Source of the DNA: Microbacterium proteolyticum
Lineage (GTDB): Bacteria; Actinomycetota; Actinomycetes; Actinomycetales; Microbacteriaceae
NCBI RefSeq assembly: GCF_014192415.1
Contig: NZ_JACHXY010000003.1
Span: 308,227-372,226, forward strand
Direction of reading: 5' to 3'
Length of the DNA: 64,000 nt
Shown here: positions 50,794-61,867 of the stretch, piece after piece
How the letters are laid out: every line of letters begins with the position of its first letter
How positions within the stretch are numbered: position 1 is the first letter of the stretch
Position numbers and translations under genes: made by a program
The notes under the pieces: generated by a model
Databases searched by the model: none
Told to the model about the DNA's origin: nothing
The model's input: only the letters and a program-made list of their open reading frames with translations

Positions 50794-51684
50794 CTACGTC
50801 TCTTCGCGCAGCGCGGCGACGATGCGCGCACGCGCAGCCGCCCCCACCCGGGTGGGGAGAAGGGGGAAGTCGTGCACGGCGCCCTCGCGCTCGAGGAAGG
50901 TGACGTCGACTCCGGCCGCCCGCGCCTTCTCGACCAGGAGATGGGCGTCGGGGTTCAGGATGTCGCGCGTGCCCGATGCGAGCAGCAGGGGACCGAGGTC
51001 GTGCAGATCACCGAAGAGCGGGCTGACGACGGGGTCGGTGAGGGGGAGGTCGCCGGCCCACTTCTCCGCGAGGACGCGGCACCCGTCGACGCCCAACCAG
51101 GGATCGGTGGGCAGAACGTCCGGAATGCGGGGATTTGAGATCGTGAGGTCGAGGGCCGGAGCGATGAGGACCGTGCGGATTCCCGCGATGCCGGCGTCGC
51201 GGAGCGCGAGTGCGGCCGAGAGCGCGATCTGGCCCCCGGCCGAGTCTCCCGCGAGGTGGACGGGATGACCCGATCGCTGCAGCGCCGTGTGCAGACGGAG
51301 CATGAGCGCGTTCGCCTCCCGAGCGTCGCCGTACGGGAGCAGGCGCCAGATCGGCACCGTCACGGTGATCTGCGCCTCGGCGGCGATCTGGAAGATGAGG
51401 GCCCAGTGCTGAGAACGGATCGTGTTGATCCACCCTCCGCCGTGGGCGTAGATGACGTGCCCCGAAGAGCCCCCCGACGTGGGCGACACGGTGTAGACCG
51501 GTGTCGCTCCGTCGCGATCGACGGTGATCGAGACGTCGGGTCGGACTCGTGCGGGCGGGCCGTAGGCGGCCGGTCGCAGGGCTCGCTCGCGGATGGCGTC
51601 CTCAGCACCCTGGGCACTCCGGAACGGCCTGTGGGCGTGGGTGAGACGCAGAAGGGCGGGGATCATCGCGTCGGGAAGGTACAT
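50794..51684 (-). CDS. Alpha/beta-hydrolase, HSL-type esterase (296 aa)
   Basis: Hormone-sensitive-lipase-like carboxylesterase. The oxyanion motif HGGGW lies near residue 80, the nucleophile Ser in GDSAGG (about residue 146), an Asp in the SGTRDILNPD stretch and the catalytic His in REGAVHDFPLL. No signal peptide. ATG with AAGGAG 5 bases upstream. It probably hydrolyses short-chain esters; the natural substrate is unknown. Divergent from the glycosyltransferase gene across a 277-base gap. Confidence 0.9.
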   Translation of the reverse strand: MYLPDAMIPALLRLTHAHRPFRSAQGAEDAIRERALRPAAYGPPARVRPDVSITVDRDGATPVYTVSPTSGGSSGHVIYAHGGGWINTIRSQHWALIFQIAAEAQITVTVPIWRLLPYGDAREANALMLRLHTALQRSGHPVHLAGDSAGGQIALSAALALRDAGIAGIRTVLIAPALDLTISNPRIPDVLPTDPWLGVDGCRVLAEKWAGDLPLTDPVVSPLFGDLHDLGPLLLASGTRDILNPDAHLLVEKARAAGVDVTFLEREGAVHDFPLLPTRVGAAARARIVAALREET

Positions 51685-51961
51685 CGCGCTCCTTCGTCGG
51701 GGGGTGACGTCATCGGGCCCCGGCAGTGCGAGGGGCGCGGGCGTGCGCTGATTGTGTCAGACGATCGCGCGGATCACCCGTCACATCGTCGAGCCGCCGT
51801 GCGGGGCGGGCGAGCGACCGCACCGGGAGCACGCAGCCCGGAACCGCGTGCGCGGGCGTTCACTCGATGGTCGCCCGGGCGTAACCCACGACCCGGGTCG
51901 CACCCTTCAGCATGAGACGACCGCGACCGCGGTGCTGGCATCCCGACCCGGAGGCGACCCG

Positions 51962-53158
51962 ATGACCCGACCCGTCCGTGTGCTGTCGCTGTACGAGGGC
52001 TTCTTCGCCGGTGGAGCGCGCATCCTGCACTCCGACGTCGTGGCGGGTCTGACCCGCGACGGGTCGCAGCAGCACCGCGTGCTCTCGCTGACCTCGGCCG
52101 CGCGCCGCGACGCTTCCCTGCAGCTCGCTCGTGACGACGCGCGCTTCCGCCGCCTGCGCGCCGCGGGCGTACGGATCGACACGTTCGATCGCATCGCCGG
52201 AGACAGTCCCCTCGCGCCCGAGGACTTCACGGCCGCCGAGCTGACCCGCGCGGCCTCGCTCTTCGCCGAGGCCGACGTGGTGCTCTCGCTGAAGGAGCAG
52301 CCCCTGAGTCTCGTCGTGGCGCTGCAGCGGGCGAATCTGCTGCCCGATCGGCCGATCGCGGCGTGCCTGCACCGCTCTGACCCGACGCACTCGGGCCCGG
52401 CCCTCGGATGGCTGGCCGACACGGCCGCGTCCGGCGCGGTGATGGCGACGATCGCGTGCGCCGAGTCCACCTCGACCGCCTACGCGCGCGCCGGCGTGGC
52501 CGCCGCGACCTCGTGGGTCATCGACAACGGCATCGACACCCGGCGCTTCCGTCCGGGCACGCGCGCCGAACGCGCCCGCATCCGTGCCGGCCTCGGCATC
52601 CCGGAGTCGGCGCCCGTGATCGTCCTGGCCGCACGCTTCGACGCCATGAAGGATCCGGGTCTCTTCCTGCGGGCCGTCGCCCGGCACGCGCGGCGCACGC
52701 CCGACGCGCACTACGTCGTGTGCGGGGCGGGCATGTCGTCCGACAACCCCGCCTTCCGCGCGTTACGGGAGGAGAGCGGCGTGGGGCCGGGGGTACCCGT
52801 CCACGCCCTGGGTCTGCGCGACGACGTTCCCGAGTTGTATCGCGCGGCCGACATCGTCGCCCTCACCAGCGCGTACGGTGAGGCCTCGCCCCTGTGCCTC
52901 GTCGAGGGCGCGGCGTCCGGAGCGGTGCCGGTGACCACCGATGTCGGCGACGCCGCGCGCGTCGTCGCGGGCCTCGGCGTGGTCACCGCCCGTGACGAGG
53001 AGGCGATCGTCGCGGCGTGGGACGACGTGCTGGAGCGGCGGTCGGTGCTGCGCGCGGCGGCACTCGGCGCGCGCGGGCGTCTCGACCGGCGCCGCATGAT
53101 CGATGAGTACCGCGGGGCGATCACCGGCCTGCTCCAACCCGCTGCCCTGGCCGCCTGA
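51962..53158 (+). CDS. Glycosyltransferase, GT4 family (398 aa)
   Basis: Retaining GT-B enzyme. The N-terminal half begins RVLSLYEGFFAGGARILHSDVV and the C-terminal half carries VIVLAARFDAMKDPGLFLRAV and the E-x7-E nucleotide-sugar motif in GEASPLCLVEGAASGAVPV. ATG 51962 with GGAGGCGACC upstream; the frame is open further 5' but without family features. It transfers a sugar to an unknown acceptor. No polysaccharide cluster is nearby; it converges on the MFS gene. Confidence 0.88.
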   Translation: MTRPVRVLSLYEGFFAGGARILHSDVVAGLTRDGSQQHRVLSLTSAARRDASLQLARDDARFRRLRAAGVRIDTFDRIAGDSPLAPEDFTAAELTRAASLFAEADVVLSLKEQPLSLVVALQRANLLPDRPIAACLHRSDPTHSGPALGWLADTAASGAVMATIACAESTSTAYARAGVAAATSWVIDNGIDTRRFRPGTRAERARIRAGLGIPESAPVIVLAARFDAMKDPGLFLRAVARHARRTPDAHYVVCGAGMSSDNPAFRALREESGVGPGVPVHALGLRDDVPELYRAADIVALTSAYGEASPLCLVEGAASGAVPVTTDVGDAARVVAGLGVVTARDEEAIVAAWDDVLERRSVLRAAALGARGRLDRRRMIDEYRGAITGLLQPAALAA

Positions 53159-53166
53159 GCCCGGCG

Positions 53167-53217
53167 CGCGCGAGCGCCGGATGCGCGCGAGCGGCCGACA
53201 CGCGCGAGCGCCCGGCG
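53167..53217. repeat. 17-bp direct repeats, three copies
   Basis: CGCGCGAGCG recurs at 53167, 53184 and 53201, an exact 17-base period, filling the gap between two convergent genes. Confidence 0.7.
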
Positions 53218-53220
53218 CCG

Positions 53221-54414
53221 TCACGGGGTCGCTGCGCCGGTACGCCGGATGCCGCGCGCCGCCACCGCCGTGCACAGTGCGCAGACGGAAGCCGTCGCCC
53301 CGAGCAGGACCCACATCGGCGCGAACGCGGTGAGGGCCGCCAGCCCCGCCGGCAGCAGGAACCCCAGATACGTCAGCGAATAGTACGCCGCCGTGATGCC
53401 GGCGAGATCCTCAGGATTCGCCAGCGCCTGGGTGGCGGACAAGCCGAAGACCATCGCGAGCCCGTAACCGGCGCCGAAGACGGGCGCGGCGACGAGCACG
53501 ATCCACACCTGCTGCGAGAAGGCGGCGATGAGCAGCAGGAGCGCGCCCGTGGCGATGAGGGAGCCTCCGACGAGGCCCATGCGTCCGCGCAGGAGCGTCG
53601 CGAGGTGACCCGAGAAGAACTGCGTCACCCAGCCGACGCCGAGCGTGATGACGGTCACGACGGTGGCGAAACCGACGGTGAACCCCGGGATGCGATCACT
53701 CACCAGGCTCGGACCGACAGCGAACGACAGCGCCGGGGCCGCGAACACCCAGGGAGCGAGCGGGAGGACGACCCGGAAGAACCTCGATCGTGCCGATCGA
53801 GGCACCCGGAGGTTGCCGAACAGCCGCGTCACGCCGGGGTCGAACGGACGGGTCTCGGATGCTCGCAGCACGATGAGGAATGCGACCACGCACGCGGCGA
53901 TCTGCACGAGGTACGGCAGCACCGCGGGCCAGGGGGCCCATTGGGCCAGAGCCCCGCCGACGCCGGCACCGCCCCCGAAGCCGATGGTGAGCATGCCCGC
54001 CGCGCGCCGGGCGCCCGCGGTGGAGCGCCCCTCCGCGATCGACAGCTCCTTGATCCACGACGTGCCGACGACCATGCCGGCCGCGACGCTGAGGCCGCAG
54101 ATGAAGCGTCCGACGCAGAGCCCGGCGAAACTCGAGCTGGAGCAGGCGAGCACGAAGCTTCCGACGATGCCGAGCAGCAGACCCGCCAGCAGCACCGGGC
54201 GCCGACCGTACCGGTCGGACCAGGCGCCCGACAGCGCGAACCCGGGCACGATTCCGAAGACGTAGGCCCCGAGCAGGAAGTCGACCTGCACCTGAGAGAA
54301 GCCCTGCACGAGCCGGTAGTACTGCATGAGCGGCAGGAAGTGATTGCCGCCCCAACCGAGGACGACGAGCGCCGGGGCCACGAGGAGCCACGACCGGGTG
54401 GGGCGGACGTCCAT
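53221..54414 (-). CDS. MFS transporter (397 aa)
   Basis: Twelve-helix major facilitator. Helix 1-2 loop and motif A are seen in GAWSDRYGRRPVLLAGLLLG; the rest is hydrophobic with short loops. ATG 54414 is 7 bases after GAGAGAGG and is preferred to the GTG immediately before it. Substrate unknown; sugar or drug exporters and metabolite importers all have this shape. It reads away from, and might serve, the polyketide genes beginning 750 bases upstream, but this is only proximity. Confidence 0.85.
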   Translation of the reverse strand: MDVRPTRSWLLVAPALVVLGWGGNHFLPLMQYYRLVQGFSQVQVDFLLGAYVFGIVPGFALSGAWSDRYGRRPVLLAGLLLGIVGSFVLACSSSSFAGLCVGRFICGLSVAAGMVVGTSWIKELSIAEGRSTAGARRAAGMLTIGFGGGAGVGGALAQWAPWPAVLPYLVQIAACVVAFLIVLRASETRPFDPGVTRLFGNLRVPRSARSRFFRVVLPLAPWVFAAPALSFAVGPSLVSDRIPGFTVGFATVVTVITLGVGWVTQFFSGHLATLLRGRMGLVGGSLIATGALLLLIAAFSQQVWIVLVAAPVFGAGYGLAMVFGLSATQALANPEDLAGITAAYYSLTYLGFLLPAGLAALTAFAPMWVLLGATASVCALCTAVAARGIRRTGAATP

Positions 54415-54525
54415 CACGGGGCCTCTCTCGCGTGGTGTGCGGCGCGATGCCGCGGGTCGTCGCCTCGCGCCGGCGCGTTCACGCGCGACCGACGCACCCG
54501 TGCCCGCCCGGCGGTCGCCGCGTGA

Positions 54526-54939
54526 TCAGTCCTGCGTGTCGGGCTGATGGACCTTGCGGAACGCGTCCTTGCGCGCGATCTTGCCCCCGCGGAACTCGTA
54601 GATGTCGCAGCCGCGCGTGGTCAGGACCGTTCCGTCGGGTCCGGGCCCGGTGAACGACCAGGTGGCCGCTCCGCGACGCCCCGAGATGATCGGGTGCTCC
54701 TCTTCGTGCCGTTCCTGCCCGGTGTCGAAGGCCAGCATGAGCGCGAACCCCTCGCGCACCTGTTCCTTGCCCGTCCAGGTGCGCCCGGGTTCGGGGCCGA
54801 CGGACGCGCTGTAGACGCAGTCGTCGGTGACGTGACTCATCAGCGCCTCAAGGTCGCGACGGGTCCAGGCATCGCTGAATGCGGCCAGCACGTCCGACGT
54901 CATGTCGCTCAGGCTGTTCTCGGGGGTGGAGTCGCTCAT
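54526..54939 (-). CDS. SnoaL-like / NTF2-fold protein (137 aa)
   Basis: Small alpha+beta barrel of the NTF2/SnoaL superfamily: VLAAFSDAWTRRDLEALMSHVTDDCVY at the start and ATWSFTGPGPDGTVLTTRGCDIYEFRGGKIARKDAFR at the end. Such folds can be polyketide cyclases, isomerases or binding proteins. ATG at 54939 is the start; CATAGT lies 6 bases upstream, so the mRNA may be leaderless. Divergent from the type III polyketide synthase gene with a large palindrome between. Involvement in the same pathway is plausible but unproven. Confidence 0.82.
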   Translation of the reverse strand: MSDSTPENSLSDMTSDVLAAFSDAWTRRDLEALMSHVTDDCVYSASVGPEPGRTWTGKEQVREGFALMLAFDTGQERHEEEHPIISGRRGAATWSFTGPGPDGTVLTTRGCDIYEFRGGKIARKDAFRKVHQPDTQD

Positions 54940-54945
54940 GAGTGA

Positions 54946-54951
54946 ACTATG
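54946..54951 (-). promoter_or_regulatory. -10 box of the NTF2-like gene
   Basis: CATAGT on the coding strand, 6 bases before the ATG, with no Shine-Dalgarno sequence between. Confidence 0.4.
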
Positions 54952-55007
54952 GCACCGGCGCGGCGAGATGTCGTGAGATGTTCGCGGCGAAACGAGATCG
55001 GCGGCGC

Positions 55008-55033
55008 CCGCTTGCGGACATGTCCGCAAGCGG
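55008..55033. promoter_or_regulatory. 26-bp perfect palindrome between divergent genes
   Basis: CCGCTTGCGGACA (55008-55020) is followed at once by its exact reverse complement, TGTCCGCAAGCGG (55021-55033). It lies 69 bases before the NTF2-like start and 134 bases before the polyketide synthase start. Such length and symmetry suggest an operator for a dimeric repressor, or two overlapping ones. No regulator gene is adjacent. Confidence 0.7.
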
Positions 55034-55166
55034 ACGCATCCGGGGTCCTCTCGTCGTCGCGGGAGCACCCCGAATCGGCCCTCCCCGGCCCCGCGGCACC
55101 ATAGACGCCGCGCACACGGCGCGCCATCCCCGCACCGGGTGCCCGGCCCCGTGCCTAAGGTGAGAC

Positions 55167-56261
55167 ATGACCGCGCGCATCCTCTCGATCGGCACGGCCC
55201 TCCCCGACACGCGCGTGGAGCAGTCCAGCCTGCGCGACCTGTTCGCTGCGCAACCCGGCTTCGACCGCATGAGCCGGCGGCTGGTGGGGGCGGCGTTCGA
55301 CGCCGCCGCGATCGACACCCGCCACGTAGTGCTGCCGCAGCTGGCCGGACCCGACGGTGACGGCCTCGGCGTACGCGAGGGCGACACCCTGCTCATGCCC
55401 TCCACCGGCGCCCGCAACGACGAGTACCGCCGCACCGCACCGGCCCTGTTCGCGGAGGCGTCGCGCGTCGCCATCGCCGGATCGGGGTACGACGCTGATG
55501 CCGTGACGCACGTCGTGACGGTCTCGTGCACCGGCATGTTCGCCCCGGGCCCCGACTACCACCTCGTGCGCGATCTCGGACTGTCGCCGACCGTCGAGCG
55601 CTATCACCTGGGCTTCATCGGCTGTGCGGCGGCCATCCCGGCACTGCGGCTGGCGGCGCGCATCGTCGGCGCCGACCCGGCGGCGGTCGTGCTCGTCGCC
55701 TGTGCGGAGCTGTGCTCGCTGCACTGGCAGACCTCGTCGCACCCCGACCAGATCGTCGCCGCATCCGTCTTCGCCGATGGCGCGGGCGCCGCCGTCGTGG
55801 CATCCGGAGACTCCTCCCATGACGGCCTCGACCTCGACGACTTCGCCACCCATGTGACCGACGAGGGCGAGAAGGACATGGCCTGGACCGTGGGCGACTC
55901 GGGGTTCCAGATGACCCTGACCCCCGAGGTGCCGCGCATCATCGGGCGCGAGATCTCGGCCATCGCCGCCGACGTGGTCGGCGACCTCTCCGACGTCGAC
56001 GCATGGGCCGTTCACCCGGGCGGGCGGAGCATCCTCGATCGGGTCGAGAACGCCCTGGGGTTGGATGCCACCGCGCTCGCCGCCTCGCGCGACGTGCTGC
56101 GCCGACACGGCAACATGTCGAGTGCGACCCTGATGTTCATCTTGCGCGACCTGCTCGCCGACGCCGCCCGTATCGAGGGCGACCGGGTCGCGGCACTGGC
56201 CTTCGGCCCGGGCCTCACGGTCGAGGCGGCGAAGATCACCGTCCGCCGCCCGCGGGCGTGA
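55167..56261 (+). CDS. Type III polyketide synthase (364 aa)
   Basis: Homodimeric chalcone-synthase-like enzyme that extends an acyl starter with malonyl-CoA units. The catalytic triad is complete: Cys153 (LGFIGCAAAIPALRLA), His283 (WAVHPGGRSILD) and Asn316 (RHGNMSSATLMFILRD), and SCTGMFAPGPDYHLV is typical. Length normal. ATG 55167 has AAGGTGAG before it, part of which could also be a -10. It heads a translationally coupled operon with a methyltransferase and a flavin monooxygenase, as in srsABC of Streptomyces griseus, so alkylresorcinol- or alkylpyrone-type phenolic lipids are the best guess. Confidence 0.93.
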   Translation: MTARILSIGTALPDTRVEQSSLRDLFAAQPGFDRMSRRLVGAAFDAAAIDTRHVVLPQLAGPDGDGLGVREGDTLLMPSTGARNDEYRRTAPALFAEASRVAIAGSGYDADAVTHVVTVSCTGMFAPGPDYHLVRDLGLSPTVERYHLGFIGCAAAIPALRLAARIVGADPAAVVLVACAELCSLHWQTSSHPDQIVAASVFADGAGAAVVASGDSSHDGLDLDDFATHVTDEGEKDMAWTVGDSGFQMTLTPEVPRIIGREISAIAADVVGDLSDVDAWAVHPGGRSILDRVENALGLDATALAASRDVLRRHGNMSSATLMFILRDLLADAARIEGDRVAALAFGPGLTVEAAKITVRRPRA

Positions 56262-57151
56262 ATCGCCCCTCTCGCCCGCGCGGGCTCGCGCGGCGCGACA
56301 CGCAGCTCACCGAGCTCATGGACGACCCCGACTGCGACCCGCGCGCGCTCGCCGCCACCTACCGTCGGTTCGACATGGTCAACCGTCTCGTCTCGGCGTG
56401 GGGGCGGGTCTACCGCACGCACGTGGCACCCGAGCTGCGCGCCCTCGGTCGCCCGGCCCGCGTGCTCGATCTCGGCTCGGGTGGCGGCGACGTCGTCGTG
56501 CGCCTGGCCGCCCTGGCCGCGCGCGACGGTCTCGACGTCGAGTGGGTCGGCGCCGACCCCGACCCCCGGGCGCACGAGGCCGCCCGGGCGCGGCAGCGAT
56601 CGGGTGTGCGGTTCGTCGCGGCGGGCTCGCGCGAGCTGCTGGCCGCGGGCGAGCGGTTCGACCTCGTCGTGAGCAATCACGTGCTGCACCACCTCGACGC
56701 CGAGGGCCTGCACTCGTTCACCGCCGACTCGCTCGCCCTCTCGCGCGGCGCGGTTCTGCACGCCGACATCGCACGCGGGCGACTGGCGTACGCCCTGTAC
56801 GCCGTGGGTATCGTCCCTCTGTCGGTCGGCACTTTCCTGCGCGTCGACGGACTGCGCTCCATCCGGCGGAGCTATCGCACACCCGAGCTGGCGAGCGCAC
56901 TCGGCGCCCCGTGGAGGGTGGAGTCGCCCGCACCGTTCCGCGTGCTCGCCGTCGCGCGGGGGCGAGCGGATGACGCCGTGAGCCTCGACGCCGTCGCACG
57001 GGGTCGAGCGGATGCCGCCGCGGGCGAGGTGCGCGCGGCCGCGTCGATGTCGCCCCGGGCGCGCGAGGGCGCCGCGAATGCCGGGACGCCGAGTACGGCC
57101 CGCACCGGCGCGACGACCCCCGCGACCATCCGGACGGATGCCGATGCCTGA
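56258..57151 (+). CDS. SAM-dependent methyltransferase (297 aa)
   Basis: Class I methyltransferase: SAM motif RVLDLGSGGGDVVVRLA, acidic VEWVGADPDP and the FDLVVSNHVLHHL post-motif. GTG start overlaps the polyketide synthase stop (GTGA). It probably methylates the polyketide product. After about residue 230 the chain becomes an Ala/Thr/Arg-rich tail with a 14-residue duplication (VARGRAD twice) and no evident fold; this is unusual for the family. The stop overlaps the next gene by 8 bases. Confidence 0.85.
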   Translation: MNRPSRPRGLARRDTQLTELMDDPDCDPRALAATYRRFDMVNRLVSAWGRVYRTHVAPELRALGRPARVLDLGSGGGDVVVRLAALAARDGLDVEWVGADPDPRAHEAARARQRSGVRFVAAGSRELLAAGERFDLVVSNHVLHHLDAEGLHSFTADSLALSRGAVLHADIARGRLAYALYAVGIVPLSVGTFLRVDGLRSIRRSYRTPELASALGAPWRVESPAPFRVLAVARGRADDAVSLDAVARGRADAAAGEVRAAASMSPRAREGAANAGTPSTARTGATTPATIRTDADA

Positions 57152-58265
57152 GGTGCTCGTCGTCGGCGCGGGGCCCGTGGGCCTCGCCCTCGCCGCCGAC
57201 CTGCGCACCCGCGGTGTCGACGTCGAGGTCGTCGAACGCCGCGTCGACGCCGGCGGTGGCACACGGGCCATCGGCATCCACTCCCCCGCTCTGACGCTGC
57301 TCGAGACGAGCGGCGCGACCGACGGCATTCGGGCCGAGGCCGTGCGGATCGACCGCGGCGAGGCGCGCGCCGACGGACGGGTGCTCGCCGAGATCCGGTT
57401 CGACCGTCTGCGTGCCCGGCATCCCTATGTCGCCGCGCTCCCCCAGAGCGACACGATGCGAGTGCTCACCGCCCTCGCGCCGCCGGTGCGGGGCGACACC
57501 GCGGTCCAGGCGCTGCGGCACGACGGCGGCGGCGTGCGGGCCGAGGTGTCGGGGCCGGACGGCCGGAGCGAGATCCGCGCCGCGGTCGTGGTCGTGGCAT
57601 CCGGGTGGGCGGGACGCGGGCTCGTCTACCGCGACGCCGCCGTCCGCACGCACCACTACCCCGACCGCTACGTCATGGCCGACGTCGTGGCATCCGGGGG
57701 TCCGGTGGCCCGGGTACACCTCGAGCGCGGCGGCGTGGTGGAGTCCTTCCCCCTACCCGACGGTCGCCGGAGGCTGGTCGCGTGGGCCGGGTCGAACGAG
57801 GTGGAGGATGCCGAGGCTTTCCTGCGCGGCGCGGTCGCCGCCCGCACCGGGATCGAGGTCGACATCGCCGGCGCCTCGACCTTCGGCGTCCGTCGCGCCG
57901 TCGCTCCGGCCCTGCGGCGCGGGCGCATCGTCGTCGTGGGCGACGCCGGGCACGAGGTGAGCCCGATCGGCGGGCAGGGGATGAACCTCGGGCTGCTCGA
58001 CGCGCTGACCCTGGCGCCGCTGCTCGCGCCGTGGGTGCGGCGAGGCGACGACACGGGACTCGCGCGCTGGGAACGCGACCGTCTCGCGTCGGCCCGGCAC
58101 GCGGCACGGCTGGCGTTTCTGAACACCCTGCTCGGACGCGCAGCGGGGCCGACGGCGCACGCCGTACGGACGGGTGCGCTGCGCACGCTGCTGCGAGGAC
58201 CCGGCGGCGCGGCCTTCACCCGCGCCTACGCGATGCGGTTCGACCGGGCCGCGCCCGGCACCTGA
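57144..58265 (+). CDS. FAD-dependent monooxygenase (373 aa)
   Basis: Group A flavoprotein hydroxylase: the dinucleotide fold VLVVGAGPVGLALAADLR at the N-terminus, and the second FAD motif VVGDAGHEVSPIGGQGMNLGLLDALTLAPLL. It probably hydroxylates the aromatic product of the upstream enzymes, as SrsC-like proteins convert resorcinols towards quinones. ATG 57144 overlaps the methyltransferase gene. No DG-to-substrate domain beyond the usual one. Ends 11 bases from the convergent UbiA gene. Confidence 0.88.
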   Translation: MPEVLVVGAGPVGLALAADLRTRGVDVEVVERRVDAGGGTRAIGIHSPALTLLETSGATDGIRAEAVRIDRGEARADGRVLAEIRFDRLRARHPYVAALPQSDTMRVLTALAPPVRGDTAVQALRHDGGGVRAEVSGPDGRSEIRAAVVVVASGWAGRGLVYRDAAVRTHHYPDRYVMADVVASGGPVARVHLERGGVVESFPLPDGRRRLVAWAGSNEVEDAEAFLRGAVAARTGIEVDIAGASTFGVRRAVAPALRRGRIVVVGDAGHEVSPIGGQGMNLGLLDALTLAPLLAPWVRRGDDTGLARWERDRLASARHAARLAFLNTLLGRAAGPTAHAVRTGALRTLLRGPGGAAFTRAYAMRFDRAAPGT

Positions 58266-58276
58266 CGGCCGGAACG

Positions 58277-59140
58277 TCAGGCGACGACGAGTTGCACGGC
58301 GAGCAGGAGCGCCGCGACCATCGTCAACTGAAACACCGCCCGGCCCGGGGGACGCACGAGCACGAGCACACCGGTCGCGAGGGCCACCGCGACCACGGCT
58401 GCGAAGAACACCCCTCCGACGGCCCCGACGCCACCGCCCGGGCCGAGCAGAACCGCCACCGCCCCGATGACGATCCCCGCGGCGGCGAGCAGCACCGACG
58501 CGCGCGCGCCGAGGCGGTGCGGGAGGCCGCGGACGCCGGTGCGGCGGTCGTCGTCGAGGTCGCGCACGACGTTGGTCAGGTGCACCGCGGCGCCCAGGGC
58601 GGCACCCGCGACCGACGCCCACACCGCGGCGAGCGCGGGAGCCGAGGTCGACAGCGTCGCGAACGAGGGGAACAGACCGAAACTCAGCAGGAACGGAACG
58701 ATCGAGAACGGCGTCGACTTCAGCCCGGCGTTGTACGCCCACGCCGAGGCGAGGGCGACGGCGTGAGCGGCCACGAGCCCGGGCCCCAGCGGTGCCGACA
58801 GGGCGAGGGCGACCACGACCGCCCCCACGCCGACAGCGAGCGCCCGGCCGGCGGTGACCGCTCCCCCGGCGATGGGCTTGTCGGTGCGGCCGACCGCGGC
58901 ATCCCTCGCCCCGTCGATGGCGTCGTTCGAGAGCCCCACCGACACCTGACCCGCGAAGACCGCGGCCACGAGCAGCACAAGGCGTCCGGGGTCGACACCC
59001 GCGGCGATGCCGAGCGCGAGCGACAGGGCGGTGACGACGAGCGTGGGGCCGGGGTGGGTCGACGCCCACAGCGCCCCCACGACGCCCGCGCGCCCACGAG
59101 GGGCGGGGGCGAGGGGCGGCTTCGCCGCGGCATCCGTCAC
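58277..59140 (-). CDS. UbiA-family prenyltransferase (287 aa)
   Basis: Membrane enzyme with about eight hydrophobic helices that attaches a prenyl chain to an aromatic ring or other acceptor. Both Asp-rich Mg2+/diphosphate motifs are present: NDAIDGARD near residue 72 and VRDLDDD near residue 190. TAGCGT lies 6 bases before the GTG start, a leaderless arrangement. It converges on the polyketide operon. It may prenylate the phenolic product, but menaquinone, carotenoid or heme A pathways also use this family; no other genes of those pathways are here. Confidence 0.88.
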   Translation of the reverse strand: MTDAAAKPPLAPAPRGRAGVVGALWASTHPGPTLVVTALSLALGIAAGVDPGRLVLLVAAVFAGQVSVGLSNDAIDGARDAAVGRTDKPIAGGAVTAGRALAVGVGAVVVALALSAPLGPGLVAAHAVALASAWAYNAGLKSTPFSIVPFLLSFGLFPSFATLSTSAPALAAVWASVAGAALGAAVHLTNVVRDLDDDRRTGVRGLPHRLGARASVLLAAAGIVIGAVAVLLGPGGGVGAVGGVFFAAVVAVALATGVLVLVRPPGRAVFQLTMVAALLLAVQLVVA

Positions 59141-59146
59141 TCGATG

Positions 59147-59152
59147 ACGCTA
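59147..59152 (-). promoter_or_regulatory. -10 box of the UbiA gene (leaderless arrangement)
   Basis: TAGCGT on the coding strand, 6 bases before the GTG. Confidence 0.45.
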
Positions 59153-59263
59153 CCGCGGGCGGGGGCGGACGGCTCGTTCCTCACGCGTCGGCGAGGGGTT
59201 TTGCGCCGGCAGCGACGGGGGTCGGGCGCCCCGCGTTGAGCACCACGATCGCGCAACGAACTC

Positions 59264-59290
59264 TTGGCACTCGCGGCATCCGAGTGCTAA
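59264..59290 (+). promoter_or_regulatory. CIRCE-like HrcA operator
   Basis: TTGGCACTC, 9 bases, GAGTGCTAA: one change from the canonical inverted repeat TTAGCACTC-N9-GAGTGCTAA bound by HrcA. It overlaps a possible -35 (TTGGCA) and a weak -10 (TAATCT, spacer 18). Confidence 0.9.
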
Positions 59291-59300
59291 TCTCATCACA

Positions 59301-59321
59301 GTTGAGTCGACAAGGCTCAAC
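59301..59321 (+). promoter_or_regulatory. HAIR-like HspR operator
   Basis: GTTGAGT, 7 bases, GCTCAAC: the TTGAG/CTCAA core and spacing of the HspR-associated inverted repeat CTTGAGT-N7-ACTCAAG. It lies 10 bases after the CIRCE-like site, near the expected transcript start. Confidence 0.8.
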
Positions 59322-59332
59322 TTCACCGAACA

Positions 59333-59351
59333 TCGGGATGCCACATCCCGA
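59333..59351 (+). promoter_or_regulatory. Leader hairpin of the Hsp20 gene
   Basis: Perfect 8-base arms TCGGGATG and CATCCCGA with a 3-base loop, ending 10 bases before the AAGGAG ribosome-binding site. Confidence 0.5.
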
Positions 59352-59373
59352 CCGATCGATAAGGAGAACGACA

Positions 59374-59829
59374 ATGGCCACCTACGACCCCTTCCGCGAC
59401 CTCGACCGTCTGGCGTCGACCCTTCTCGACGCACGCCGCGGCGGCGGACCTCGGCGGATGCCGATGGACCTCTACCGCGACGGCGACCACTACGTCCTCG
59501 CCGCCGATCTGCCCGGCGTCGACCCCGGTTCGGTCGACATCGACGTCGACGGTCAGCTGCTGACGATCCGCGCCGAACGAACGCTGGGCTCCGGCGACGG
59601 CGTGAAGTGGATCACGCGGGAGCGCGAGACGGCATCCTTCGTCCGCCAGCTCAACCTCGGCCAGGGCATCGACACCGAACGCATCAGCGCCTCCTACCGC
59701 AACGGCGTGCTGAGCGTGACGATCCCCGTCAGCGAGAAGGCCAAGCCGCGGCGCATCGCCGTCTCGACCGACGAGCCCGATGGGGTCATCGAGGCGCACG
59801 AGAGCACTCCTCAGCTCATCGAGCAGTAA
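59374..59829 (+). CDS. Small heat shock protein, Hsp20 family (151 aa)
   Basis: ATP-independent holdase that binds unfolding proteins. The alpha-crystallin domain spans about residues 30-130, with YVLAADLPGVDPGSVDIDVDGQLLTIRAER and the A-x-x-x-N-G-V-L motif (ASYRNGVLSVTIPV). An N-terminal FRDLDRLASTLL and short C-terminal tail complete it. ATG with AAGGAGA upstream. Upstream CIRCE-like and HAIR-like sites predict repression by both HrcA and HspR, so strong heat induction. A hairpin terminator follows. Confidence 0.94.
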   Translation: MATYDPFRDLDRLASTLLDARRGGGPRRMPMDLYRDGDHYVLAADLPGVDPGSVDIDVDGQLLTIRAERTLGSGDGVKWITRERETASFVRQLNLGQGIDTERISASYRNGVLSVTIPVSEKAKPRRIAVSTDEPDGVIEAHESTPQLIEQ

Positions 59830-59837
59830 CGCACCAC

Positions 59838-59867
59838 AGGGAACGGTCCTGGCGAGGGCCGTTCCCT
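59838..59867 (+). terminator. Terminator of the Hsp20 gene
   Basis: Arms AGGGAACGG and CCGTTCCCT, 8 bases after the stop codon. Confidence 0.65.
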
Positions 59868-60032
59868 CGTCGTTGCGTGCGGTTCACGGGTGCGGGAGCG
59901 TGCGGCGGCCGCCCGTGTAATGCGCACCCGCGCCCTACTGCCCTGCGTGCGCACCCGCGCCTCACGGCCCCCGCGCGGTCTCCGCACCAGGAGCACCCCG
60001 GCCATCGGGACGATCTCGCTCGATGTACGACA

Positions 60033-60065
60033 ACGCCCCGGGGGCCCAACCGGCTCCCGGGGCGT
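60033..60065 (-). terminator. Terminator of the acidic-protein gene
   Basis: Arms ACGCCCCGGG and CCCGGGGCGT, about 10 bases beyond the stop on the minus strand, followed there by a TTGT stretch. Confidence 0.65.
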
Positions 60066-60075
60066 CGAAGAAGGC

Positions 60076-60435
60076 TCAGAGGTCTTCGGGGGCGAGGTCG
60101 CCCTGCCCCTCTTCACCGAGCTCGACGACGCCGGGGTCCTGACCCTGGGAGTCGGTGCCGGTGGAGAGGGCGTGGATGTCCTCCAGCGGGATGTCGCTGT
60201 CGTCGGCGGGGATCTCGGCCGGATCGGCACCCGTGGCGGTGGCCGGGTTGATGTCGGCGGGGTCGGCGCCCTCGTCGAGCGCCGTGGTCGCGTCCCACTC
60301 GGCCTGCGCCGGGTCGAGTGCGGGGTCGGGCTCGATGGACGTGTCACCGTCGCGCAAGGGCTGCACTCCCGCGATTCCCCCGTCGGCGGCGGGGGTCGTC
60401 TCGGCGGTGGTCGGGTCGATCGAAGCGTCGCTCAT
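60076..60435 (-). CDS. Acidic, probably disordered hypothetical protein (119 aa)
   Basis: About 30 Asp/Glu residues, one Arg and no Lys, rich in Ala, Pro, Gly and Thr with no hydrophobic core: likely intrinsically disordered. No signal peptide. The ATG at 60435 has AAGGA 6 bases upstream, and a terminator follows, which supports a real gene; longer readings upstream are not credible. Function unknown. A second acidic protein begins at the end of this window, so such proteins may be part of this stress-related region. Confidence 0.75.
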   Translation of the reverse strand: MSDASIDPTTAETTPAADGGIAGVQPLRDGDTSIEPDPALDPAQAEWDATTALDEGADPADINPATATGADPAEIPADDSDIPLEDIHALSTGTDSQGQDPGVVELGEEGQGDLAPEDL

Positions 60436-60658
60436 GGGGGGTCCTTCCGTCGGACGCGGGTCACCGCAGGGATCAGCGGTTCCTCTCATCCCACACGGCG
60501 CACCCGCCGCCGGTGTGCCCCTTGACACGCGTCGGGCGTGCTCCGCCCCTCCGCGAGGCGCTGCCGCTCGCGCGCGACGGTCGCCGTCGGAGCCGCTGTC
60601 AAGGCGCTGGCGCCGCGGGGCCGGGCGGGCGAGCGTGAGGGAGACGAGAGGATCTCCC

Positions 60659-61867
60659 ATGAACGACTCCCGCCCCACCTCGCCCGCGCACATCGTCGTC
60701 ATCGGCGGGGGGAACGCCGGACTGTCGGTGGCGGGCCGCCTGCACCGCGCCCGTGTCGGCGAGATCACCGTGATCGAACCGCGCGAGCAGCACGTGTTCG
60801 CGCCCCTGCAGTCCCACATCGCCGGCGACTCCGCGCGGGCCTCCGAGGCCGTTCGCCGTCAAGCCGACGTCACCCCTGCGGGTGTGCGGTGGCTGCGCGA
60901 CGAGGTCTTCACCGTGGATGCCGAGGCCCAGCGCGTGCACCTCGTCTCGGGTGAGCACCTCGACTACGACCAGCTGGTCGTCTGCGCCGGCATGCGCATG
61001 GCCTGGGAGCAGGTGCCCGGGCTGCCCGATGCCATGGCGGCGCCGACGGGCATCTCGAACTACGACTTCGACCTCGCCGCGAAAGCATCCCCCGTGCTCC
61101 GCGACGTGCGCTCGGGCACCGTCGTGTTCACGCAGCCGCCGGAGCCGGCGTCCTGCGGCGCCGCAGCGCAGAAGCCGATGTACCTGGCCTGCGACTGGTG
61201 GCGGTCGATCGGCGTGCGCGACGACATCCGCGTCGTGTTCGTCTGCCCCGACCCCGTGCCCTTCGGCATCCCCGCCATCGACCGCGAGCTGCAGCGCAAG
61301 CTCGACGAGTACGGCATCGAGGTGCGCTACAGCCGTGAGCTCCGATCGGTGGATGCCGGTTCTCACAGGCTCGTGATCGGCCACGGCGACGCAGAGGAGA
61401 CGCTGTCGTACGACGTGCTGCACGCGGTGCCGCCGCAGCGGGCGCCGGAGTGGATCGCGGGCAGCGGGCTGTCGGCATCCGATGATCCGCACGGCTTCGT
61501 CGACGTGGACCCCGAGACGTTCCAGCACGCGCGTCACCCCGAGGTCTGGTCGGTGGGCGACGCCGCGGCGAGCGCCACCCGTCGCTCGGGCGGCGCGATC
61601 CGCCAGCAGGCCAAGGCTCTCGTGAAGAACATGAAGGCCGTCCTCGCCGGTCGCCCGCCCACGGCGACCTACAACGGATACAGCGTGGTGCCCTTCACGG
61701 TGTCGCGCGGCACGGTCGTGTTCGCGGAGTTCGATCGGCGCGGCCGACTGCAGCCGACGATCCCGTTCTGGCGCTCGCTGTATCGCGAGCGCCGGCTGTC
61801 GTGGATCGCCGACCGGCGCGTCCTGCCGTGGGTCTACTGGCACCTGATCCTGCGCGGCCTCGCCTGA
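60659..61867 (+). CDS. SQR-like FAD-dependent NAD(P)-disulfide-fold oxidoreductase (402 aa)
   Basis: Flavoprotein of the sulfide:quinone oxidoreductase group. FAD fold HIVVIGGGNAGLSVAGRL at residues 11-28, GDAAASATRRSGGAIRQQ near 300, and a C-terminus (FAEFDRRGRL...WVYWHLILRG) that lines up well with type II SQR such as human SQOR. Cys166 (EPASCGAAAQKP) is where SQR has a redox Cys, but the other Cys (GYTSCP in SQOR) is Val344 here (GYSVVP). So it may use another electron donor or act without the sulfide-reactive disulfide. ATG at 60659 with AGAGG 8 bases upstream. Confidence 0.82.
   Translation: MNDSRPTSPAHIVVIGGGNAGLSVAGRLHRARVGEITVIEPREQHVFAPLQSHIAGDSARASEAVRRQADVTPAGVRWLRDEVFTVDAEAQRVHLVSGEHLDYDQLVVCAGMRMAWEQVPGLPDAMAAPTGISNYDFDLAAKASPVLRDVRSGTVVFTQPPEPASCGAAAQKPMYLACDWWRSIGVRDDIRVVFVCPDPVPFGIPAIDRELQRKLDEYGIEVRYSRELRSVDAGSHRLVIGHGDAEETLSYDVLHAVPPQRAPEWIAGSGLSASDDPHGFVDVDPETFQHARHPEVWSVGDAAASATRRSGGAIRQQAKALVKNMKAVLAGRPPTATYNGYSVVPFTVSRGTVVFAEFDRRGRLQPTIPFWRSLYRERRLSWIADRRVLPWVYWHLILRGLA

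Follow-up and report, generated by a model that had tools for sequence, protein, structure and literature searches.

A UbiA-family prenyltransferase associated with type III polyketide synthase operons in Microbacterium and other Actinomycetota

A 64,000-nucleotide stretch of Microbacterium proteolyticum DNA (the window, on contig C3 of genome G000, 3.48 Mb in size) carries an operon for a type III polyketide synthase (PKS), a methyltransferase and a monooxygenase, with a gene for a UbiA-family membrane prenyltransferase facing it from the other strand. The arrangement raises the question of whether the prenyltransferase belongs to the pathway of the operon, as a first-pass annotation had proposed when it extended a phenolic-lipid pathway by UbiA and an NTF2-like protein, and if so, what the four enzymes would make. 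This UbiA family is linked, in cis or in trans, to type III PKS operons of several actinobacterial families, with three different sets of methyltransferase and hydroxylase. The data suggest that UbiA regularly goes with such clusters and is not their neighbor by chance, and the four genes likely form a pathway whose product is a prenylated phenolic or quinone lipid.

UbiA and the PKS operon in the genus Microbacterium

The genus sample consisted of 119 congeneric genomes, which were searched at 1e-20 for the PKS and at 1e-10 for UbiA. A PKS homologue was detected in 99 genomes and the window-type UbiA in 61. The congeneric PKSs split into two clades, one of 63 sequences with 59-100% identity and one of 36 sequences with 49-55% identity. 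UbiA was present in 61 of the 63 genomes with the window PKS clade, in none of the 36 with the other clade, and in none of the 20 without a PKS. One of the two UbiA-negative genomes of the window clade (G044) ends in a 3.2-kb contig, and for the other (G057) the 12 kb read held none. Two secondary UbiA matches of 35% identity (G007 and G055) were removed before linkage was counted. In 60 of the 61 congeners, all but G048, UbiA lay downstream of the PKS in convergent orientation, so the arrangement exceeds chance, and the two genes lay within 5 kb in 58 of the 61. The two neighbors that the first-pass annotation had added to the pathway fared differently: UbiA is kept with the PKS, whereas the NTF2-like gene adjoins it in 3 of 30 genomes (G000, G006 and G072; loci L007-L036) and was rejected as a pathway part since it is not conserved.

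All trees were built by quick searches with Shimodaira-Hasegawa-like approximate likelihood ratio test (SH-aLRT) support only. The 50-sequence PKS tree placed 20 of the 21 UbiA-less rows in one starred clade with G661, and 20 of the 23 UbiA-adjacent rows, together with G057 and G621, formed a second; G623, G625 and G640 fell outside both. The UbiA-less operons of the genus (L055, L056, L058 and L111-L128) mostly occupy one chromosomal site, and the same dihydrolipoamide-dehydrogenase-like neighbor, named by eye, was found in 20 of the 25 loci read without an adjacent UbiA. About 20 kb separates the PKS operon from UbiA in G006, G070 and G104. An expanded cluster was considered for this insert and rejected, the parts read in G006 (L041/L042) and G104 (L047) resembling by eye a cassette for sugar uptake and catabolism.

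UbiA and PKS operons across actinobacterial families

Two family labels used here were inferred: "Streptomyces-like" for the family of genome G467 and "Micromonosporaceae" for that of G322, the latter from a gene order like that of Micromonospora endolithica and from named loci. Among 150 Streptomyces-like genomes, a PKS of the type found in srsABC of Streptomyces griseus (srs-type; 1e-55) was detected in 80 and UbiA (1e-25) in 76, and UbiA was present in 76 of the 80 srs-type genomes. Each of the 76 UbiA genes lay no more than 2.4 kb from the srs-type PKS, 74 of them divergent and 2 co-directional. An isoprenylcysteine carboxyl methyltransferase (ICMT)-type gene and a flavin-dependent monooxygenase (FMO) gene were checked in five of these 76 loci (L091-L095).

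The Microbacteriaceae sample also comprised 150 genomes (UbiA at 1e-20), of which 84 had UbiA, 53 had a Microbacterium-type PKS and 58 had an srs-type PKS; the two PKS types never occurred together in this sample. UbiA was present in 56 of the 58 genomes with an srs-type PKS and in 23 of the 53 with a Microbacterium-type PKS, and 5 of the 84 UbiA genomes had neither type. The 56 genomes with UbiA and an srs-type PKS carried both on the same contig in 27 cases and within 6 kb in only 3, so UbiA would mostly have to act in trans in these bacteria; in G673 it lies 1.58 Mb from the PKS. The six srs-type loci fetched (L271-L276) all contained PKS, ICMT and FMO genes. A split pathway was seen in G704, G621 and G635, where a PKS-methyltransferase pair without a monooxygenase is matched by a monooxygenase homologue convergent with UbiA elsewhere (locus pairs L261/L277, L270/L278 and L289/L288). 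In the streamlined genomes G684 (1.7 Mb) and G693 (1.3 Mb), PKS, ICMT, FMO and UbiA genes are closely spaced and co-directional (L280 and L281), and the PKS-UbiA spacing, the feature read in G620 (1.8 Mb), is the same there. In a tree of 62 UbiA sequences, 41 Microbacteriaceae copies formed a starred set with G606 outside, and 18 of the 19 partners of Microbacterium-type PKSs formed a starred set of 21 with the three split copies, with G640 outside. These groupings fit a history in which UbiA would have been retained while its partner operon was swapped.

UbiA was detected in 74 of 81 Micromonosporaceae genomes. Twenty UbiA regions of this family were chosen by hand; 19 had an adjacent PKS and methyltransferase, 16 of these 19 also had an acyl-CoA dehydrogenase, and L159 had none of them. 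A set of named loci consisted of the 80 kept out of 526 relatives, Actinoplanes missouriensis not being among them and some loci being truncated by contig ends. All four genes (PKS, acyl-CoA dehydrogenase, methyltransferase and UbiA) were present in 74 of these best 80 of 526 loci; the dehydrogenase was missing in 4, the PKS in 1 and both in 1. In the phylum sample, counted by hand, a PKS (1e-30) was detected in 24 of 42 UbiA genomes and in 47 of 354 others, and the link is weaker at this level than within families. UbiA thus accompanies the PKS operon in relatives from the genus, the Microbacteriaceae and the Streptomyces-like genomes, which supports the membership of UbiA in the PKS pathway that the first-pass annotation had proposed.

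Several observations weigh against such a membership. The co-occurrence counts are not corrected for relatedness, and only 21 of the 84 Microbacteriaceae UbiA genes have a PKS within 6 kb, most of the PKS-distant copies adjoining a major facilitator superfamily (MFS) transporter and hydrolases. In the phylum sample, 18 of the 42 UbiA genomes had no PKS at 1e-30, and some deep lineages have UbiA next to aspS/hisS-like genes, the region read there containing no PKS (L099, L100 and L101). The window UbiA is no more than 35-39% identical to the Micromonosporaceae enzymes, with which it shares invariant motifs and forms one compact family in the trees, and the pathway and its product are predicted from genes. 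UbiA is also missing from 36 of the 99 PKS-bearing congeners; therefore, the first three pathway steps can stand alone.

In many Microbacteriaceae, UbiA stands alone next to MFS and hydrolase genes, and these copies, like those beside aspS/hisS-like genes, would fit a UbiA that serves an unrelated pathway and sits beside the operon as part of an inherited neighborhood. We consider this very improbable, since PKS-free UbiA genomes amount to 5 of 84 in the Microbacteriaceae and 0 of 76 in the Streptomyces-like family, the FMO-UbiA pair travels jointly, and the association persists although gene order varies by family between convergent, divergent and co-directional.

The congeners that lack UbiA lend themselves to another explanation, in which the main product of the three-gene operon is an unprenylated alkyl-benzoquinone like the mycobacterial polyketide quinones, with UbiA acting on a minor branch only. 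The covered parts of the papers on pkqABC (PMC9927152) and srsABC (PMC6669644) present these clusters as complete with no UbiA, and our statements on these and the other papers cited by PMC number are limited to such parts; the covered part of PMC6669644 makes no mention of UbiA or prenyl for srsABC of Marisediminicola antarctica. This explanation appears improbable, although less so than the previous one, because UbiA is confined to one PKS clade in the genus (61/61) and is present in nearly all srs-type genomes of the Streptomyces-like family (76/80) and the Microbacteriaceae (56/58). The preferred reading keeps UbiA as the probable fourth enzyme of the pathway.

Gene content, related clusters and the proposed product

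The genes of the window are listed in Table 1. The overlaps of a few bases within the operon and the convergent UbiA end 11 bases away, both noted in the first-pass annotation, were confirmed: the GTG start of the methyltransferase sits within the PKS stop (4-base overlap), the two possible ATG starts of the monooxygenase give an overlap of 14 or 8 bases with the methyltransferase, and the stops of the monooxygenase and UbiA are separated by 11 bases.

Table 1. Genes of the PKS-UbiA locus in the window
Feature	Length (amino acids)	Coordinates	Strand	Domain match (E-value)	Remark
Type III PKS	364	55167-56261	+	Chal_sti_synt_N (1e-27), Chal_sti_synt_C (8.5e-23), Pfam	
Class I S-adenosylmethionine methyltransferase	297	56258-57151	+	Methyltransf_25 (1.8e-11), Pfam	PRK06202 family
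Flavin adenine dinucleotide-dependent aromatic monooxygenase	375	57138 (or 57144)-58265	+	FAD_binding_3 (3.8e-40), Pfam	
UbiA-family membrane prenyltransferase	287	58277-59140	-	PF01040 (3.4e-25)	
NTF2/SnoaL-like protein		54526-54939	-	SnoaL_2 (2.1e-20)	Divergent from operon; probably no system member

The methyltransferase scored 274.6 bits on NF004851 (cut-off 243). It carries a low-complexity C-terminal extension (56950-57151), and its relatives in L049 and L059 have 230-235 amino acids compared with 297 in the window. The closest solved relatives of the monooxygenase are polyketide oxygenases, e.g. 4k2x and PgaE. For the NTF2-like gene, the ATG at 54939 was preferred over the GTG of the longest open reading frame. 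Beyond UbiA (59374-61867) lie an HSP20 gene, which is also found near UbiA in L042 and L047, and a gene for a flavoprotein similar to type III sulfide:quinone reductase, with 179 bits against a cut-off of 525. Genes in the fetched loci were called by a GC-based script, and many product names were assigned by eye.

The catalytic triad of the PKS (Cys153, His283 and Asn316), described as intact in the first-pass annotation, is present and invariant across an alignment of nine PKSs. Thr122, Ala126 and Cys183 align with Thr144, Ala148 and Cys205 of Pks18 (offset 22), residues which we take to line the long-chain tunnel of that enzyme. A tryptophan ahead of the catalytic histidine, W280, is also invariant in the nine PKSs, and its equivalence with W281 of ArsB, where a tryptophan is reported before the catalytic histidine, was assumed. 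It was rejected as proof of resorcinol formation because Pks18, a pyrone maker, has the same residue at that position.

Both aspartate motifs that had been noted in UbiA were recovered, with N72, D73, D76, R79, D80, D194 and D198 invariant in an alignment of 34 sequences. The genome holds four further UbiA-family genes, three of which were scanned (L002, L003 and L004) and passed the NCBIfam cut-offs for heme O synthase, PRK13105 and MenA, respectively. The window UbiA passed no NCBIfam cut-off, scoring 18-39 bits against cut-offs of at least 180 (best MenA model, 23.9 of 264), and these three identities were rejected on the sub-cut-off scores. In a 66-row UbiA tree, it was one of 15 Microbacterium copies in a starred set that included no paralogues. 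The genome's own paralogues had branches of 4-6 changes per column. The MenA-type and PRK13105-type paralogues attached elsewhere within the wider family, on branches of 4.3-6.0 changes per column, and because these branches are very long, the placement is read as a long-branch artefact. The AlphaFold model of the window UbiA has the UbiA fold (mean predicted local distance difference test score, 93.5), and its structure best matches those of digeranylgeranylglyceryl phosphate synthase and of the Aeropyrum UbiA (template modeling score 0.72). The top solved match of the sequence profile was also digeranylgeranylglyceryl phosphate synthase (1.2e-6), an ether-forming enzyme.

The agq cluster of Actinoplanes missouriensis, reportedly described by Awakawa in 2011, is said to yield alkyl-O-dihydrogeranyl-methoxyhydroquinones. 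In the parts of the papers covered, A. missouriensis is stated to produce 6-alkyl-4-O-dihydrogeranyl-2-methoxyhydroquinones (PMC3569393), the agq enzyme to O-prenylate an alkyl-methoxyhydroquinone (PMC3227686), Phytohabitans flavus to have genes named agqA-D (PMC7692728) and M. endolithica to have losA (PMC7587189). The agq/los clusters share with the window a type III PKS, a methyltransferase and a flavin enzyme, and their UbiA and that of the window belong to one AgqD-like family. The P. flavus (L183) and M. endolithica (L238) loci each hold PKS, acyl-CoA dehydrogenase, methyltransferase and UbiA genes, and it is from the P. flavus locus, not from A. missouriensis, that the dehydrogenase was assigned to the agq set. 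Among the window genes scanned (50794-61867), no acyl-CoA dehydrogenase was found, a FAD_binding_3 monooxygenase being present instead. UbiA is divergent in agq/los and convergent in the window. The window PKS is 40-43% identical to los-type PKSs, whereas neither the methyltransferase, although class I in both (Pfam), nor the monooxygenase had a BLAST match to its los counterpart at 1e-3.

The first-pass annotation had taken srsABC as the known parallel. Together with pkqABC of Mycobacterium smegmatis, which makes polyketide quinones, srsABC does follow the same three-gene logic, and the order PKS-methyltransferase-oxygenase in one overlapping run is also found in the window. It is nevertheless not the nearest parallel, because the window methyltransferase is class I and not ICMT, and the PKS shares about 32% identity with the srs type compared with 40-43% for the los type. 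SrsB is of the ICMT type according to the covered part of PMC6669644 and the Pfam match in L095, whereas the window enzyme matches Methyltransf_25 with no ICMT match; at 1e-3, neither this methyltransferase nor the monooxygenase had a BLAST match to its srs counterpart. Assignment of the window cluster to the srsABC family was therefore rejected, and the agq/los clusters, which include a UbiA, are closer. The window cluster would be agq-like in its presumed chemistry and is a separate build in its genes, since its PKS shares 40-43% identity with the los type and about 32% with the srs type and its methyltransferase and monooxygenase have no los or srs BLAST matches.

The best reading is probably an agq-like route that uses a different methyltransferase and hydroxylase and ends in a prenylated alkyl-methoxy(hydro)quinone. 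As judged from its family, the PKS would use malonyl-type extenders to turn a long-chain acyl starter into an alkylresorcinol-type phenol, which the overlapping methyltransferase would O-methylate. Ring hydroxylation by the monooxygenase would give an alkyl-methoxyhydroquinone, oxidizable to a quinone, and UbiA would move an allylic prenyl group onto the ring, more likely onto oxygen than carbon. The best-known aromatic UbiA enzymes are C-prenylating, and hydroquinone rings suit C-prenylation, so that UbiA might instead prenylate a ring carbon and give a ubiquinone-type C-prenylated quinone and not an O-prenyl ether. We regard this as rather unlikely; O-prenylation is favored because the agq enzyme is reported as O-prenylating (PMC3227686), and the nearest solved relative forms an ether, two points that bear weakly on the window UbiA. 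The product would probably serve as a membrane redox or protective lipid alongside menaquinone.

UbiA as a proposed fourth partner of phenolic-lipid operons

The more surprising result, beyond the window cluster itself, is UbiA as a frequent fourth partner of srs-type operons. Our literature search, with subscription journals mostly outside it, found no description of this UbiA partnering srs-type or Microbacterium operons. For 70 Microbacterium genomes, PMC7438953 gives a share of 79% with type III PKSs, in clusters A-D, compared with 99 of 119 here; the words "UbiA" and "prenyltransferase" do not occur in the covered main text of that paper.

We tentatively propose, as a reading that falls a little short of likely, that the three-gene operons for phenolic lipids or polyketide quinones in Actinomycetota usually supply a fourth enzyme, from this UbiA family, so that Streptomyces-like bacteria and Microbacteriaceae would have a prenylated lipoquinone as physiological end product, and that the Microbacteriaceae UbiA was kept while srs-type and Microbacterium-type sets of PKS, methyltransferase and hydroxylase were swapped. 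If so, a widespread set of operons thought to stop at methylated, hydroxylated resorcinols or polyketide quinones would make prenylated lipoquinones in many lineages. Often placed at a separate locus, UbiA lies outside the cluster boundaries that a genome miner would draw, and the clades of one genus with and without UbiA offer a natural comparison. If UbiA was retained through operon exchange, selection would have acted on the final prenylated molecule, and the presence of UbiA in genomes as small as 1.3-1.8 Mb would point to a role in the membrane or in respiration, not to that of an antibiotic. The finding would then bear on the function of these lipids in electron transport and membrane protection.

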